From a virus: DNA of 38,652 nt. The translations under genes were made by a program, and so were the position numbers. Of this stretch, positions 1,351-36,750 are shown one piece after another (positions within the stretch are counted from its first letter, which is position 1; every line of letters starts with the position of its first letter). Under the pieces are notes generated by a model that did no database searches, was not told where the DNA came from, and was given only the letters and a program-made list of their open reading frames with translations. The stretch spans positions 1-38,652 of the IMG/VR virus record IMGVR_UViG_3300033388_007451. One strand, given 5' to 3'.

Positions 1351-4314
1351 ATGGCTTTAGAAGTTTTAGAAAAAATCCATAAGGGATTATATGGTTTAGC
1401 TACTCCAGTTAGAGAAACAATTCGGAAAATAACTCCCAAATGGTTTCCTTTTCCTTTTGCTCAAAAAATAGAGAGCTCAATGGAAGCTTTTGAGGAAAAA
1501 GTAGCTCCAATTACAAGGAAATTTGAGAGAGCTGGTTTAAAATTGATGGACACTTTTATTGAAAGTTATAAAGTAGCCGAAACAAAAAACAGAAGAATAT
1601 GGACTAATATATTAGACCCTACTTGGAAAATGGAAAAAGAAGGATATAAATTTGCTCCTGGAGAGAAAGAAAAATTTAGAAAACAAGCGGAAACTCTAGC
1701 TCAACATATTCCAACCAATCCTTTTGTGCCAGCGGGAGGACTAAAGGGGATTGACCCTCGAGTAGCGAGAATCCTTCAAAAAGCAGTTCAAAAAGGAGTT
1801 TCTGGAAAAACTCTTAAACAGATTTTAAAAATAAAACCCTCCCAGTTAAAACCTTTAATTCAAACCGCCAAAGAGCAAGCAAAAAGAATAACCAAAATAA
1901 AACCTCCTACCTTAAATCTTGATAGGATTCAAGCTCCTGAAGAGATTAAAACTAGAATTATTGATTGGACTAACAAACACGCCAAATACTTGGCTGACCA
2001 ATATCCTCATTATACCTTCCGAGAGATTCAATCTGAGTTAGAAAAAAGTGGTTTTGATATTTTAAAAGGAATGAGAACTTGGAAAAAAGTGTTTGGTGGT
2101 GACACTAAAAAAACTTTAGTTGCCATAAAAGGAATTAGAGATTCAGCTTTAAAAATTGAACAACAAATTGCCAATATTCAAAAAGCTCTTAGAACAACTA
2201 ACAATCCTGATAAAATATTGTCTCTTACTACCCGATTAAAAGATTTGCAGTTAGCTCACGATGGATTATTTGAGGCAGTTTTGGGTTCGGGGAGAATTTC
2301 TGGTCAATTACTGGCTTTTCGCAGAATGACCTCTAAAGCTCTAAAGGGAACTGTTTTAGAGAAAAGATTAGTCTTAGAAAGGTTATTAGGGAAACAATTT
2401 GAACCAGGGAGTGCTCCTTATCAGAAATTTATAACTTTATTGAAAAATATTGACCCTGCTGACCCCCAGGCAGTGATGCAATTTTTAAGACAAGCTCAAG
2501 CACCAAATATTACAGATTTTCCAGCTTCAATATGGTATAATGCTATTCTTTCGGGACCTAAAACTCATTTAGTGAACTTATTAGGAAATACCCTATTTGG
2601 AACAGTTGAGAGTTTTGTGGTAAGACCAATAGCTTTTCTGTTAGATACTCCTCTTTCTAAATTGAGAGGAGTGGCTCCCAGACACACTAGTAAAAGTATG
2701 GTTGGGTATTATGGAGGAATGTTAAGAGGGTTAAAAATCGGTATTGATAGATTTTGGCAGACAATGAAAACTGGTTTTGACCCTGAGGAGATATTATATC
2801 CTTCTAAATGGCAACAATTAAGACAAGTTCCTTGGGAGACTAAATTTGTTAGAATGCCCGGTAAAATTTCAGAAGTGCCGGGTTGGTTACAACCTTGGCT
2901 TAGGGGTACAGGGAAAGTAATTAATATACCTACTCGGCTTTTAAAAGCTGCTGATACTTTCTTTAAAGGAATTTTTGAAGAAGCAAGAAAATTTGAGTTG
3001 ATAGTGCCTAAAGTGTGGAGTAAAAACAAAACTCTACGCCAACTTATCTTAGAAGCTGATGAATTAGCAAGGTCTAATCCGTTAGAATGGTCAGATGAAG
3101 CAATACAGTTTGGTAGATGGATGACTTTTCAAGATGCTCCAGGGAAAATAACAAGTTGGGTAATTCGAGGAAGAGATACTGTACCTGGTCTAAGATATAT
3201 TATTCCTTTTGTAAATATCGCCTCAAATCTATTAAAACGGGGATTTATTGATTACTCACCTGTAGGATTAACAAAAGGGATTCAGGAGATTGTTATTAAA
3301 AATCCCAAAGCAGCCGAGACAACTGCAAGAGGGTTGTTTGGTACTCTTGTAATGTTAGGTGGAGTTTTAAAGTATCTTGATGGAAGTATCACTTTGGGTG
3401 CTCCTCCCAACAGAGCTGAGAGAGATGCTTTCTACCGACAAGGAAAACAGCCTTGGTCAGTAAAAATAGGAGATAGGTGGGTAGGAATTAGAAGATTGGA
3501 ACCTTTTATTTACCCCTTTCTTAGCGGAGCTTTAATTGCCGATGCTGTTCATAAAGGAAAGTTAAATGATAAGAACACTGAGGAGATTATAGCTGATGCC
3601 GCTCAGAAGATAGGACAGTTTGTTACTGATGCTTCCTACTTATATGGATTGAGTCGTATTTATCGAGCCCTGAATCCTTCTTGGGAAAGCGAGGGAAGTG
3701 AGTTTTTAGCTTGGTTGCAACAATTAGGAACAGGTTTTCTTCCTTATTCTAATGCTTTACGGTCTATTGCCACTGCTATCAATCCTGAAGTTCCTGCACG
3801 AGATTTATCTACCCAGGAAGTTTTTGAGTCAATTATTCCTTTTTTAAGAAAGAAAATAAAAAAACGGCTCACTGTTTGGGGTGAACCTGCTAAATATGTA
3901 ACTGGAGCACCTGGTACCTTTTTACCAGTGGCTACTTCAGAAATTACTACTGATGATACAGAAAACGAATTAATGAGATTGGATTATAGTCCTGGTTTTC
4001 CCTCAAAACCTTCTGGAATGGACGATAATTCTTATCGAGCTTATCTTGTTTTGTCAGGGAGATTGTCAAAGTTGGCAGTTAGTTATTTGATTCACCAACC
4101 AGCTTATTATCAGGCTGATGATAATACTAAGCGAAAAATGATAGCAAATACTATTTCTGCTGTCAGAAAACAAGTTAGACAACAATATTTTGGTTATTTT
4201 AAGTGGTATGACTATTTTTACAATCTTTTCAGAAATCAAGGATTTAATCGAGAAAACTCGGAAGCTATGGCTGATAAAGCTTTTGATATGTTATTGCAGG
4301 GAGTCACTCCCTAA
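1351..4314 (+). CDS. Large internal virion protein, putative DNA-ejection protein
   Basis: The product has 987 residues and is the largest in the genome. The mid-section carries NAILSGPKTHLVNLLGN (about residues 398-414), a motif that recurs in very large phage virion proteins thought to be ejected with the DNA. The N-terminal third is lysine-rich and helical. Hydrophobic stretches follow (around TARGLFGTLVMLGGVL and PFLSGALIADAV), as expected for a protein that enters or crosses a membrane. It starts two bases after the upstream coiled-coil gene and ends the virion operon. No transglycosylase or protease motif is evident to me. The last 24 bases overlap a leftward small gene. The function is inferred from size, motif and position. 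Confidence 0.7.
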   Translation: MALEVLEKIHKGLYGLATPVRETIRKITPKWFPFPFAQKIESSMEAFEEKVAPITRKFERAGLKLMDTFIESYKVAETKNRRIWTNILDPTWKMEKEGYKFAPGEKEKFRKQAETLAQHIPTNPFVPAGGLKGIDPRVARILQKAVQKGVSGKTLKQILKIKPSQLKPLIQTAKEQAKRITKIKPPTLNLDRIQAPEEIKTRIIDWTNKHAKYLADQYPHYTFREIQSELEKSGFDILKGMRTWKKVFGGDTKKTLVAIKGIRDSALKIEQQIANIQKALRTTNNPDKILSLTTRLKDLQLAHDGLFEAVLGSGRISGQLLAFRRMTSKALKGTVLEKRLVLERLLGKQFEPGSAPYQKFITLLKNIDPADPQAVMQFLRQAQAPNITDFPASIWYNAILSGPKTHLVNLLGNTLFGTVESFVVRPIAFLLDTPLSKLRGVAPRHTSKSMVGYYGGMLRGLKIGIDRFWQTMKTGFDPEEILYPSKWQQLRQVPWETKFVRMPGKISEVPGWLQPWLRGTGKVINIPTRLLKAADTFFKGIFEEARKFELIVPKVWSKNKTLRQLILEADELARSNPLEWSDEAIQFGRWMTFQDAPGKITSWVIRGRDTVPGLRYIIPFVNIASNLLKRGFIDYSPVGLTKGIQEIVIKNPKAAETTARGLFGTLVMLGGVLKYLDGSITLGAPPNRAERDAFYRQGKQPWSVKIGDRWVGIRRLEPFIYPFLSGALIADAVHKGKLNDKNTEEIIADAAQKIGQFVTDASYLYGLSRIYRALNPSWESEGSEFLAWLQQLGTGFLPYSNALRSIATAINPEVPARDLSTQEVFESIIPFLRKKIKKRLTVWGEPAKYVTGAPGTFLPVATSEITTDDTENELMRLDYSPGFPSKPSGMDDNSYRAYLVLSGRLSKLAVSYLIHQPAYYQADDNTKRKMIANTISAVRKQVRQQYFGYFKWYDYFYNLFRNQGFNRENSEAMADKAFDMLLQGVTP

Positions 4315-4949: not shown

Positions 4950-5510
4950 TCACAAGATATTAGAGGAGATTTTTGGTTTATTTTTAAGAGAGTGAAATTT
5001 CAGATGAGCTTGAGAGGAGGGGAAAACATAAAGATTTTCTGGTCTATCATCGGTAATATCTCCGTTGATGTGATGCACAACCTCCTTCTTGGTTAAATAT
5101 CTATTGAGGTATTTTTCTGCCACTAACCGACTTCTACGAACATAACCTTGTTTATCAGCGAAAGGATGGTTAAGAGCACGAATCAAAATATATCCACAAC
5201 TATGCTTTTTCCAACCTCTTCCACTACCTCGAGGAGAATGATGTGTATGAGGTTTATAAGGTTTTTCTGATTTTCTGTGTTGTTGATAGTAAATTTTAAA
5301 ATAAGAAGGGTGTTTTTTTCGCCAATTTCGTGAAGCTTGAATTATTTTTTCTCGATTTTTCTGAGCCCACCTTTTCCGAGATTCTGTCCGAGATTCTGGA
5401 TGTAATTTATCCCATTTCCTTTTATAGGGAGCATCATAACAAGATTTACAAAGACCTTTTGTGTAATGAGGTTTGAGTTTATTACATTTTTTACAGATTA
5501 TTAGTTCCAT
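4950..5510 (-). CDS. HNH homing endonuclease
   Basis: The product has 186 residues. The N-terminus has a small zinc knuckle (CKKCNKL...CKSC), followed by a basic arginine/lysine-rich linker for DNA binding. The C-terminal 80 residues hold the HNH_3-type nuclease core: GYILIRALNHPFADKQGYVR, then VVHHINGDITDDRPENL with the HH catalytic pair and Asn/Asp metal ligands, and a final histidine in QAHLKFH. It reads against all its neighbours and is free-standing: I see no intron signature or split gene around it. It is probably a mobile endonuclease that spreads its own locus during mixed infection. Confidence 0.85.
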   Translation of the reverse strand: MELIICKKCNKLKPHYTKGLCKSCYDAPYKRKWDKLHPESRTESRKRWAQKNREKIIQASRNWRKKHPSYFKIYYQQHRKSEKPYKPHTHHSPRGSGRGWKKHSCGYILIRALNHPFADKQGYVRRSRLVAEKYLNRYLTKKEVVHHINGDITDDRPENLYVFPSSQAHLKFHSLKNKPKISSNIL

Positions 5511-5558
5511 ATATTAAGTTTAGCACATTAAAAATTTGAAAACAAGAGGAGGTTAAAA

Positions 5559-5738
5559 ATGAAAAGATATTTTGTCACTGAAATCCTGTATAACGGTATT
5601 GTCAGAAGCGAGGCAGATATAGAAACCTTAAAATGGCTTCTGGGAAAATGGACGAAAGAGATGAGAATTAGGGTAATCGTAGAGAAAGAAGAGAGAGAAG
5701 ACCAAATAAAGGAGGGAAAAAATGAAAAAGTTTGGTAG
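5559..5738 (+). CDS. Small hypothetical protein
   Basis: The product has 59 residues (MKRYFVTEILYNGIVRSEAD...). A strong ribosome site (AGAGGAGGTTAAAA-ATG) decides the start. The stop lies inside the next gene, a 17-base overlap that implies translational coupling. The sequence predicts strand-helix-strand with a charged tail. No family is recognised. It is the first gene of the SD-rich accessory operon. Confidence 0.7.
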   Translation: MKRYFVTEILYNGIVRSEADIETLKWLLGKWTKEMRIRVIVEKEEREDQIKEGKNEKVW

Positions 5739-6534: not shown

Positions 6535-7072
6535 GTTGAATAAGTTGAGATTAGAGCTCAAACCCGGTAAGGATTACACTGAAATTGTCTTTTGTGGAGA
6601 TTGGCACTATGGAGCAAGAGAGTGCGCTGTCAATAAAGTGAAGGATATGCTTGATTACTGCTTAAAGCATCGGATTTATGTTTTCTTAATGGGAGACCTG
6701 CTGGAAGCTGGACTTCGGACTTCAATCGGAGCTTCGATGTATCGTCAAAAGCTCAATCCTCAAAAACAGATGGAAGATGTAATTGAACTTCTCCGACCCT
6801 TAAGTGAAAACAATCTGATTCTTGGAGCTTTGGAAGGAAATCACGAGTTAAGAATAGAGAAAGAGACTGGGATTTCTATTATGAAAGTTATCTGTAGATT
6901 TCTAAATATCCCTTATTTGCACGGAGCTTGCTGGAACCTCTGGTATGTTAAAGATCAATCCTACAAAGTTTATACTCTCCACGGTTCTTCTTCTTCAAGG
7001 TATGTCTATACCAAATTGAAGGCACTGGTTGATATTTCTCATAATTTCAACGCAGACTTGATGGCAATGGGT
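6479..7072 (+). CDS. Metallophosphoesterase, exon 1
   Basis: The 5' exon gives the first 198 residues of a calcineurin-like phosphoesterase. It shows the metal-binding motifs in order: GDWHYG (D-x-H), MGDLLEAG (GD), LEGNHELR (GNHE) and YTLHGSS. The fifth motif, GHxH, is missing here and is completed by the second exon at 7978: MAMG + HVHELADTV. Read without splicing, the frame runs into a stop at 7124-7126 and gives a 215-residue protein lacking the last metal ligands. The likely role is a DNA/RNA phosphodiesterase or phosphatase, as in many phage members. Ribosome site GGGAGGTAAAA-ATG. Confidence 0.85.
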
Positions 7073-7221
7073 CAACGTGGCTCATATAAAATCTGGCTAT
7101 ATGCTGGAATACCCTTAGAGCCTTGAATACAAAACACTTATCTGAAAGGATAAGTGAAGTAAAAATTTCAAGGATTGGGCAATCAGCAGGGAAGATTCCT
7201 TAAATGGAAAACCCTCAGAGA

Positions 7222-7866
7222 CTATATGCCAGACAATTTGCCTTTATCAAAGAGACGATGACAGTTTGGACAAAGCAAGATAAGATTTTCTTCTATATAT
7301 TTCCCGTTCTTTCTACGAGGGATACGATGAGCAACGTCGCAAATATCCTTGTTCCATCCACAGACTTGACAAGTATGATTGTATTTTTTGTTCATATATC
7401 TACGCCAATAATCTTCACTGTGCTTTGTATAATATCTGCTTCGGTCGGTAGGAATTCCGTATTTCTTAATTCGTTTATGGATAGTTCCATATCCGCAATG
7501 ATATTTCTTGGCAATTTCCTTAATCTTTAATCCGTTTTCCAGATATTCTTTTCTCAGAACTTCTTCTGTTAATTCCTTAGCTACCTTAATCTCGTATTTT
7601 CTGGAATAAAGAGGAAATTGTTCTGGATGTTTACTTCTATATTCACCATAACATTTTATAGAGCAAAAATAATGTCGCATCGGCTTAGTATTGAATCTCC
7701 ATTTTGGACGGCGAAAAGTTTTCCCACAATTAGCACAAGTGAAAGAAACCCACTTAGCTCGTCGGTCTTTATTATAACATTCTCTTGAACAGTATTTCCC
7801 CCGTTTACCCTTATTGGGTCTTGAATAAAAACTTTGTCCACAAACTTTACACTTTTTATATGGCAT
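7222..7866 (-). CDS. Intron-borne HNH homing endonuclease
   Basis: The product has 214 residues. The N-terminus has two treble-clef zinc knuckles (CKVCGQSF...YCSREC and CANCGKTF...FCSIKC). A helix-turn-helix follows (IKEIAKKYHCGYGTIHKRIKKYG), and the C-terminus is an HNH nuclease core with paired cysteines (CQVCGWN...CDVAHRIPRRKNG...NLILLCPNCHRLFD). It lies within the P8 region of the group I intron but is encoded on the opposite strand. Its stop codon falls inside the intron's P7 sequence. It has its own consensus promoter and a nearly leaderless start. It likely drives homing into intronless alleles. Confidence 0.9.
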   Translation of the reverse strand: MPYKKCKVCGQSFYSRPNKGKRGKYCSRECYNKDRRAKWVSFTCANCGKTFRRPKWRFNTKPMRHYFCSIKCYGEYRSKHPEQFPLYSRKYEIKVAKELTEEVLRKEYLENGLKIKEIAKKYHCGYGTIHKRIKKYGIPTDRSRYYTKHSEDYWRRYMNKKYNHTCQVCGWNKDICDVAHRIPRRKNGKYIEENLILLCPNCHRLFDKGKLSGI

Positions 7867-7901: not shown

Positions 7902-7977
7902 TAGGCAAATTGAAGATATAGTCCGAACTTATGGGAAACCATAAGAAGCAGGCAATAAGTCTGCGATAACAAAATTA

Positions 7978-25688: not shown

Positions 25689-26543
25689 ATGACGAAATCC
25701 CAGACATTTACCGTTTTCAATCCTGAGATTTGGTCTCCCCGAGTTACTGAATACTTTAAAGAGAAGCTGGTAGCTGCTAAATTCTTCAGTGATTACTCAA
25801 GCGAGTTGGCTGGAGGTGGAGATGTTGTTCACATTCCTCAATACACCCAGAGGTTCAGCGTTAACGACATTAACACAACCAGTGGTGATGTTACAGCAAC
25901 CAATGTAAGCGACACTCAAACCAGTTTGACTGTTAACAAGTGGAAAGGTACTTCTTTCTACATTACTGACTTTCAAGCTCGACAGATTGGAAAGCAGTAT
26001 AAAGTAATTAACACTCACGCCAGAAATGCTGGTCACGACTTGGCAAAAACATTTGACACTGCTTTGTTCACTTACACTTCCGCTTCCAATGTTACTGACA
26101 GTATCGGAGATTCAGCCACTGATATTCTGGCAACTACTTTGGAAAGAGGTATCTCCATCTTAGAGTCCAACAGTATTCCTGTTAACGAGTGTGCTTTCTT
26201 CTTCCACCCATACGCTTGGTATAGAGAGGTTCAAAAGAATTCTGATTTGAGGCAAGCAACAATTTATGGTGAGTCCCGACTTCCTAACTTAACCAAGTTA
26301 GCAAGTATTTACGGTATTCCTGCTTATGTGACTCCCCAAGTTCCTGCTGGAACTGCTGGCACTGAAGGTGGACACCGAAATGGACTTTACCACCCAGAAT
26401 TGATTGCTTTTGCTATGCAATTACCTCTCAGAATTTCTGAGAAAGAGGGTGAACATTTGAGAAGGAAAGTGATTGTTGATTTAGCTTACGGTATTACCAA
26501 TCTCAGGGCAGACGCTGGAATTAGGATTATCTCTAACAACTAG
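25689..26543 (+). CDS. Major capsid protein
   Basis: The product has 284 residues. The start (FNPEIWSPRVTEYFKEKLVA), IPQYTQRFSVNDI, an INTTSGDVTATNVSDTQTSL stretch and the central FFFHPYAWYREVQ segment fit HK97-fold capsid proteins of the P22/N4-gp56-like group. The C-terminus ends NLRADAGIRIISNN, a usual P-domain ending. Hundreds of copies form the shell. It follows the scaffold by five bases and is followed by an unusual set of inverted repeats. Confidence 0.85.
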   Translation: MTKSQTFTVFNPEIWSPRVTEYFKEKLVAAKFFSDYSSELAGGGDVVHIPQYTQRFSVNDINTTSGDVTATNVSDTQTSLTVNKWKGTSFYITDFQARQIGKQYKVINTHARNAGHDLAKTFDTALFTYTSASNVTDSIGDSATDILATTLERGISILESNSIPVNECAFFFHPYAWYREVQKNSDLRQATIYGESRLPNLTKLASIYGIPAYVTPQVPAGTAGTEGGHRNGLYHPELIAFAMQLPLRISEKEGEHLRRKVIVDLAYGITNLRADAGIRIISNN

Positions 26544-26549
26544 TCCTTG

Positions 26550-26611
26550 CGCTAACTTACTCGGCTTTAGTGGGCTCTCCCCTTTAGCCGAGTAGGGAGA
26601 GCCAGTTAGCG
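26550..26611 (+). promoter_or_regulatory. Interleaved triple inverted repeat between capsid gene and sugar cassette
   Basis: Three perfect stems in 62 bases. C: CGCTAACT (26550-26557) with AGTTAGCG (26604-26611). A: TACTCGGCT (26558-26566) with AGCCGAGTA (26586-26594). B: GGCTCTCCC (26573-26581) with GGGAGAGCC (26595-26603). A and B are interleaved and, at full length, mutually exclusive. The last base touches the ATG at 26612. No T tract. Confidence 0.75.
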
Positions 26612-26914
26612 ATGAAAGAGATTCAAAAAGAAATAAAAACTTCTAAAGGATATTGTCATTACAGGATTACTGACGAAAATGTTGAGATTACTGACATTTT
26701 TGTAGAGCCAAAATTCAGAGGGCAAGGAGAAGGAAGAAAGATGGTTGAAAAAGTAATCAAAAAAGCCGAAGGAAAAGCTTGTGTTTATCTCTTTACTAGA
26801 AAAAGTAATGAGGGAGCACAAAAATTCTATGAGGCAATAGGGTTCAAGAAGGTTTGCGAAATTGAAGGATTTTACAGGTCAGAGTCAGGGATTATGTATA
26901 TCAAAAGACTATGA
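26612..26914 (+). CDS. GNAT acetyltransferase
   Basis: The product has 100 residues, short but complete. It shows the acetyl-CoA site VEPKFRGQGEGRKMVEKVIK (Q/R-x-x-G-x-G/A) and the ending GAQKFYEAIGFKKVCEIEGF. It transfers an acetyl group, perhaps to an amino sugar made by the aminotransferase in the same cassette, although protein or antibiotic substrates cannot be excluded. The ATG directly follows the inverted-repeat element. Confidence 0.85.
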   Translation: MKEIQKEIKTSKGYCHYRITDENVEITDIFVEPKFRGQGEGRKMVEKVIKKAEGKACVYLFTRKSNEGAQKFYEAIGFKKVCEIEGFYRSESGIMYIKRL

Positions 26915-35196: not shown

Positions 35197-36750
35197 ATGG
35201 CTTGGCTTTCTGGATACAATACAAGACGAAAAATAACAATAGACCACACCAAGATAGATTCTGACCTAACCGATTTTCCAGTCCTTGTAAAACTTACAAG
35301 TTCTAATTTTGATTTCTCGAAAGCAAACTCAGATGGATATGATATTAGATTTACAGAAGATGATGGCACCACCCTATTAAAATACGAAAGAGAAAGGCAC
35401 GATTCTGCTAATCAGATAGCGGAATACTGGGTAAAAATTCCCTCGGTTTCAAGTTCAGCAGATACGGAGTTTTATATTTACTACCGAACGACAGACACCG
35501 CTGATGGGGCTGACCCGACTAATGTTTGGGATAGCAATTATGAGTTGGTTACCCATATGAAAGATGACCCAGATACTTCTCATGTGGCTGATAGCACTGC
35601 TAATAATAATGATGGGACAAAAAAAGCAGCTAATGAACCGATAGAAGCAGATGGGAAGATAGCAAAAGCACAGGATTTCGATGGTAGTAATGATTATATT
35701 AGTTGTGGAACTGATATAGGATTGACCCGATGGACTCTTGAAGCTTGGATAAAAAAGACAGGGGCCTTTAATTGGGATGCAATCATTACCAAAAGACCAA
35801 CTACAAATTCGGATATGAATTATTATTTCCAGTTAGGGGATGAATCTGCAACTTTTAAAAATGAAATTGGTGGTGGATTTTATGATGGTGATTGGAGGAA
35901 TGTTTGGACAGATACAGACCCAATAGCATTAGATACTTACTATTATGTAGTTCTTACTTTTGATGGAACATATCTAAAGATTTATGTAGATGGAGTTTTA
36001 AAGAAAACTTCTTCCGACCTTTCTGCATATACTCCGAATTCAGCAAGCACTACACCCGTAAGAATCGGAGCCGAAAAAGACGGTCCATCTGATTTTTTTA
36101 ACGGTATCATTGATGAAGCCAGAATATCAGATATAGCTCGTTCTGCTTCTTGGTTAAAAGCTACTTACAATTCTGGAAATGATACTTTGGTAAGTTATGG
36201 GAGTGAGGAACACGGTTATTTAGAAACCCTAACAGAAACTCTTGGTTTAACTGATACTCTTCAAAAAACAACAATTTTTTCTAAAGTATTAACAGAAAAT
36301 CTCAGTTTGTCTGACACCATTCAAAAAGTAACGAGATTTTCGAAAACATTAACAGAGGATTTAACACTGACAGATGTTGTAACAGTACTTAAGAAATTTA
36401 TTGTTAATTTGATAGAGACGCTGAATTTGTCTGACGCATTAGACAAGCTCACAAATTTTAAAAAAACAATTTCTGAGACCCTTAATTTGTCTGATACGGT
36501 TTCAATAATTAAAAAGTTCTTTGTTAGTTTATCAGAAACCTTACACTTATCAGACGCAGTTTCTCGGGTTACCAAGTTCAAAAAAACAATTATTGAAACC
36601 TTACATTTATCAGATATTGTCAGTATTGCTGGTGGCTGGTTCAAACAAATAAAACATACAACTTCTTGGAGCAAACAAACTAAACACTCCACAGCTTGGA
36701 CAAAACTAACCAAACACTCAACTTCTTGGACTAATCAAACTAAACACTAA
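35197..36750 (+). CDS. Receptor-binding tail protein: DUF2341, LamG and repeats
   Basis: The product has 517 residues. Residues 1-95 are a DUF2341 domain (GYNTRRKITIDHTKIDSDLT). Residues about 150-330 are a concanavalin/LamG lectin domain (AQDFDGSNDYISCGTDIGLT, then DGVLKKTSSDLS and FFNGIIDEARISD). Residues 345-484 are seven 20-residue repeats of the type LSETLxLSDTVSxxxKFxKT. The last part has three 10-residue repeats (KHSTSWTNQT). Such carbohydrate-binding domains on a repeat stalk suit a host-recognition fibre. Confidence 0.8.
   Translation: MAWLSGYNTRRKITIDHTKIDSDLTDFPVLVKLTSSNFDFSKANSDGYDIRFTEDDGTTLLKYERERHDSANQIAEYWVKIPSVSSSADTEFYIYYRTTDTADGADPTNVWDSNYELVTHMKDDPDTSHVADSTANNNDGTKKAANEPIEADGKIAKAQDFDGSNDYISCGTDIGLTRWTLEAWIKKTGAFNWDAIITKRPTTNSDMNYYFQLGDESATFKNEIGGGFYDGDWRNVWTDTDPIALDTYYYVVLTFDGTYLKIYVDGVLKKTSSDLSAYTPNSASTTPVRIGAEKDGPSDFFNGIIDEARISDIARSASWLKATYNSGNDTLVSYGSEEHGYLETLTETLGLTDTLQKTTIFSKVLTENLSLSDTIQKVTRFSKTLTEDLTLTDVVTVLKKFIVNLIETLNLSDALDKLTNFKKTISETLNLSDTVSIIKKFFVSLSETLHLSDAVSRVTKFKKTIIETLHLSDIVSIAGGWFKQIKHTTSWSKQTKHSTAWTKLTKHSTSWTNQTKH
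36229..36648 (+). repeat. Seven 60-bp coding repeats in the adhesin
   Basis: In-frame repeats of 20 codons, consensus (L/I)(T/S)ETL-x-LSD-x-V-x6-F-x-K-T. They diverge at the DNA level but keep period and hydrophobic pattern, so they are maintained as protein structure. Three 10-codon repeats of KHSTSWTKxT type follow to the stop. Confidence 0.8.

Follow-up and report, generated by a model that had tools for sequence, protein, structure and literature searches.

The window, i.e., the complete viral DNA stretch of 38,652 nt analyzed here, encodes a major capsid protein followed on the same strand by a GNAT acetyltransferase, the latter being the first gene of an enzyme cassette that continues with glycosyltransferase-like, cytidylyltransferase-like and APS-kinase-like ORFs. 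Between the capsid and GNAT genes, three inverted repeats are found, and the features of this region are as follows (all on the plus strand):

25689–26543, +: major capsid protein gene, 284 aa, stop codon TAG at 26541–26543 (PHROG 267/283 major head protein, E values 5.9e-23 and 4.6e-13)
26550–26557, +: A, 5' arm of the outer stem, CGCTAACT, pairing with 26604–26611 (8 bp)
26558–26566, +: B, 5' arm of the inner stem, TACTCGGCT, abutting A and pairing with 26586–26594 (9 bp)
26573–26581, +: C, 5' arm of the pseudoknot stem, GGCTCTCCC, within the loop of B and pairing with 26595–26603 (9 bp)
26586–26594, +: B', AGCCGAGTA, partner of B
26595–26603, +: C', GGGAGAGCC, abutting B' and containing the Shine-Dalgarno-like GGAG 12 nt before the ATG
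26604–26611, +: A', AGTTAGCG, partner of A, abutting C' and the ATG at 26612
26612–26914, +: GNAT acetyltransferase gene, 100 aa (Pfam Acetyltransf_1, E value 1.7e-15)

As read from its sequence, the element at 26550–26611 is an H-type pseudoknot (stems B and C) enclosed by the outer stem A, starting 6 nt past the capsid stop codon and touching the next start codon with its 3' end. A preliminary description had noted three perfect stems of 8–9 bp in 62 bases, almost free of other sequence and abutting a start codon, which is borne out: stems of 8, 9 and 9 bp are arranged in the strand order A B C B' C' A', 52 of the 62 bases are paired, the 10 unpaired ones lie in two loops (6 nt from B to C and 4 nt from C to B'), there is no spare base at the A/B, B'/C' and C'/A' junctions, and A' ends at 26611 directly before the ATG of the next ORF. 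The parser score of 66.5 lies above those of all 15,200 dinucleotide shuffles of 76 homologous regions (maximum 54.7), and folding z-scores, considering nested folding only, are −2.73 for the plus and −3.07 for the minus strand. Elsewhere in the window, group I intron-like matches (RF00028) at 6986–7284 (+) and 7911–7943 (+) do not attain the gathering score of 50 (40.3 and 20.9 bits), weak matches to several microRNA families at 19371–19466 (−) probably just reflect a long inverted repeat, and direct repeats of 30 and 60 nt are found at 36230–36750 inside a large ORF belonging to the structural region.

A search with the capsid protein gave two loci, one of which (L001, capsid 29% identical to that of the window) shows the A B C B' C' A' order at the same site in a sequence unrelated to the window's. 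Alignment of the terminase contributed 80 loci and of the capsid protein 80 more, many on shared contigs, while L096 was taken from genome contigs and L179 from a single-protein query. After dropping 18 capsid loci cut at the contig end, one that was too short and repeats of the same first 75 nt, the final set comprised 76 distinct regions 3' of the capsid stop, each at most 135 nt long and two originating from named pelagiphages, with capsid proteins as low as 16% identical to the window's in the alignment. The element is present in both L096 (capsid 80% identical, same GNAT gene) and L179 (capsid 61% identical), each time with stems largely different from those of the window. In line with an element sequence that is not kept, an exact-match search of viral contigs with 31 nt of the element gave no hit. 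The phage collection searched did not contain any cultured near relative. Genome matches were limited to an archaeon bin, a Portnoybacteria bin and one further bacterium, and the Portnoybacteria contig was rejected as a terminase relative lacking a capsid match, its distant element-like match not being preceded by a recognizable capsid gene. Among the capsid loci, L066 bears an interrupted capsid ORF (5286–5630) followed by sequence that by eye appears homing endonuclease-like, perhaps belonging to an intron or intein. Sigma-70-like promoters were also spotted by eye, TTGACT-N17-TATAAT after the element of L071 and TTGACA-N17-TATAAT between capsid stop and element in L023.

The absence of conservation, together with an even transcript level, had been named beforehand as what would refute the proposal; what is found is an architecture that is kept in the absence of a kept sequence. 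With a strand-symmetric parser, 55 of the 76 capsid-flanking regions score at least 45, a level reached by 22 of 15,200 shuffles and by 2 of 511 ends of other genes, and at a threshold of 50 the corresponding values are 51 of 76, 5 of 15,200 and 2 of 511. An earlier asymmetric parser applied to the first 47 regions had given 32 with at least 45, versus 3 of 9,400 shuffles and none of 436 controls. The two high-scoring controls, a 25-bp inverted repeat in L087 at 4669 and a structured stretch in L035 at 3104, both lack the canonical junctions. The latter stretch (3104–3235) is a second pseudoknot-like structure, located directly 3' of the terminase gene. When scanning whole loci with stricter loop settings (176 loci with 1,209,239 bases, overlapping contigs included), six matches of at least 55 were obtained away from the capsid stop. 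Excluding L064, L137 and L072, which are of a kissing type, from the 55 high scorers leaves 52 canonical elements with median stem lengths of 9 (A), 11 (B) and 8 bp (C). The A/B gap is zero in 46 and the C'/A' gap in 50 of these, the bulge from B' to A' amounts to 8–11 nt in all 52, loops L1 and L2 vary from 0 to 15 nt (median 3 each), and the capsid stop precedes A by a median of 9 nt.

Within this fixed frame, the bases themselves are exchanged almost completely. When comparing the first 7 nt of the B arms, 48 of 52 differ. Covariation was counted on stems anchored at the junctions, since the stems appeared misaligned when 11 elements were aligned with MAFFT. Own arms pair at 97.7, 99.7 and 100% (A, B and C) compared to 56, 43 and 47% with arms from other loci, percentages that are partly circular due to the parser selecting for pairing, so that the weight is carried by the shuffles and the other-gene controls. 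Odd pairs within stems are G.U in 30 and A.C in 3 cases (G.U-blind parse, 26 loci), and the plus (sense) strand has the higher score in 54 of 56 when G.U is allowed on both strands, both counts being given without p-value since related loci are not independent. Such a bias is as expected for an RNA of the sense strand and not for a DNA element. Hence, the excess of G.U over A.C, the sense-strand advantage and the pairing kept despite sequence replacement mean that the element acts as RNA, and the near-total base exchange under a kept fold represents unusually clear evidence of selection on shape alone.

The complex form is not universal. On a capsid tree of 75 rows, omitting L066 with its 114 aa, 52 loci were labeled as pseudoknot, 7 as kissing hairpin (L057, L061, L064, L072, L076, L136 and L137) and 16 as other or plain hairpin, with at least 12 changes between forms, the labels being partly assigned by hand and the kissing parse also reaching 45–51 in some pseudoknot loci. 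Thus, the complex form is missing from about one in five capsid loci (16 of 75, among which L094, L121 and L023 are ambiguous rather than plain hairpins). In 13 named phages with related capsids, the element is in no case found directly behind the capsid gene, the one parser score of 45.0 (L189) lying well inside the next ORF, and 9 of the 13 have a plain hairpin no more than about 30 nt from the capsid stop, as judged by eye from folds. A plain hairpin apparently suffices in these phages, a point against the barrier reading in that it gives no reason for keeping a pseudoknot. The genes next downstream vary as well: a GNAT gene in the window and L096, an ORF of 121–145 aa in L001 and L019, one of 301 aa in L031 and small proteins of about 60–80 aa in most loci, with the capsid gene as the constant neighbor. 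Given these several different downstream genes, the element is no leftover of the enzyme cassette; the earlier suggestion of a recombination scar left by cassette insertion is not supported, as the element also occurs where the next gene is not a cassette gene and compensatory changes maintain its pairing.

Directly downstream of the main capsid gene, uncultured phages of a wide group keep a small knot-like RNA, which probably forms a physical barrier separating capsid output from that of the next gene. Its exchange for other structural forms, the lack of a retained sequence and the constant association with the capsid gene are suggestive of a mechanical role at the capsid 3' end. Judging from position, form and evolution, we give an even chance to it being an RNA barrier that acts in cis and independently of sequence at the capsid cistron's 3' end and raises capsid output above that of the next gene. 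Another point in favor of this reading is that capsid ORFs avoid TGA (1 of 76, the interrupted L066, versus 124 of 427 other ORFs). In this mechanism, the RNA would fold as soon as it is transcribed, the fold would stop or slow down exonucleases arriving from the distal polycistronic mRNA, allowing the capsid part to outlive the rest, and post-termination ribosomes would be prevented from drifting on towards the following start codon. With a start codon directly adjacent to A', the next initiation site would additionally be covered, possible only in 31 of 48 loci. Concerning the initial view that expression must fall from capsid to enzyme levels exactly here, a real RNA element under sense-strand selection at the boundary between capsid and next gene can be affirmed, while the expression step itself is only plausible. 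Should the element determine how much capsid is made relative to other proteins, it would represent a portable device of general use for adjusting gene dosage inside operons, besides offering a testable mechanism in uncultured phages.

Alternatively, A' and C' might act as a translational gate covering the next initiation site, with the terminating capsid ribosome opening A and thereby rendering downstream translation proportional to capsid termination. With a median distance of 9 nt from the capsid stop, A begins about where a terminating ribosome would touch it, the GGAG of the window lies within C', and in 31 of 48 loci, including the window, the next start codon is located not more than 10 nt from A', so that it is likely covered there. 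In the other 17 loci, however, the start is farther away, and Shine-Dalgarno-like words are found in just 17 of the 48 (11 wholly in C'/A'). By the word list used, such words are rare in these phages (81 of 515 other ORFs). Moreover, the hairpin-type loci L017, L018, L030, L073 and L086 expose a Shine-Dalgarno-like word after the hairpin. Given the variable start distance and the few Shine-Dalgarno-like words, gating through a Shine-Dalgarno sequence cannot be what the element generally does, and coupling of this kind is considered rather unlikely. Stimulation of stop-codon readthrough was also tried and rejected, as another in-frame stop follows after 0–4 codons in 29 of 55 loci. A second stop within two codons past the capsid stop is found in 18 of 55 loci and 95 of 511 controls.

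The barrier has also to be weighed against a processing site of the RNase III type, in which A stacked on B would give a duplex of about 20 bp whose cutting separates the capsid mRNA. Stems A and B together indeed amount to a median of 20 bp (IQR 18.75–22) with a one-sided bulge of 8–11 nt, and may resemble the T7 processing sites. As this would leave unexplained both the conserved C/C' pairing and the plain hairpins of less than 20 bp in relatives, RNase III processing appears improbable.

The preliminary description considered two of the stems mutually exclusive and named an RNA switch as one possibility. Such a switch would alternate between A+B and A+C. B and C are indeed interleaved, and the nested folds A+B and A+C compete. 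In a coarse rigid-helix closure model, which takes neither chain threading nor real loop energies into account, however, all three stems close without residual strain in the window and L025, so that full exclusion is not borne out there; in this model it does hold for the untrimmed L078, whose near-zero loops result in a residual of 97.6 that drops to 0 once 4 bp of B are frayed. Coexistence as a pseudoknot would accordingly be the simpler reading. While the close energies of the two folds in the window (−21.5 kcal/mol for A+B and −25.0 for A+C) and the failure of relatives such as L078 to close all stems might favor switching, the window is one of two exceptions, A+B being more stable in 50 of 52 elements. 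A conserved, aptamer-like sequence for ligand binding was not seen, and the kissing and plain-hairpin forms at the same site would not alternate in this way. A bistable switch is, hence, very improbable.

Least probable is an intrinsic terminator or a DNA-level element such as a recombination remnant or cruciform, since ATGAAAGAG follows A' in the window and at least 5 T within the 9 nt after A' are present in only 3 of 52 elements, although a hairpin with T run behind the capsid gene of Deep-sea thermophilic phage D6E demonstrates that the site can bear a terminator-like element, and since the G.U excess speaks for RNA and conserved position and compensatory change speak against a remnant.

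With respect to known RNA classes, Rfam 15 gives no match at 26550–26611 even at E values up to 5 and no match above the gathering score in 16 related loci, and by eye there is no fixed loop sequence, i.e., the conserved unpaired core that is a hallmark of riboswitches and ribozymes. At the level of nucleotide sequence, strand order A B C B' C' A' and compensatory change place the element among enclosed H-type pseudoknots. A report of this element was not found in literature listings and the opening parts of abstracts. The leader pseudoknot located 67 nt upstream of gene 32 in phages T4 and T2, the operator for the gp32 protein encoded by the same gene, is likewise of the H-type, resides in a phage mRNA and is tied to translational control (PMC3014915), whereas the capsid element is intercistronic, lies behind the capsid gene, is surrounded by an outer stem and shows no sequence conservation. 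The dicistrovirus intergenic IRES, a triple pseudoknot recruiting ribosomes, is also an intergenic pseudoknotted RNA beside a start codon (PMC12221177), while the capsid element varies in its distance to the start and conserves no sequence. At the same position, pelagiphages HTVC026P and HTVC111P as well as phage D6E bear a plain hairpin, in D6E with the T run, instead of a pseudoknot. A terminator, T-phi, is located behind the capsid gene of T7, and these post-capsid hairpins and terminators probably share with the pseudoknot element the task of creating a step in expression after the capsid gene. Exoribonuclease-resistant RNAs of flaviviruses are compact and pseudoknotted and mechanically block the nuclease. 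The capsid element resembles them in its compact pseudoknot, blocking being only a proposal here, and differs in strand order, as the flavivirus RNAs have the partner strand of the pseudoknot outside the enclosing stem and the capsid element has it inside. Tentatively, the latter might represent a novel class of phage RNAs, namely a knotted barrier not bound to any sequence and interchangeable in evolution with kissing and plain hairpins, which would confer exonuclease resistance on capsid mRNA and be the equivalent, in viruses of bacteria, of the nuclease-resistant RNAs known from RNA viruses.
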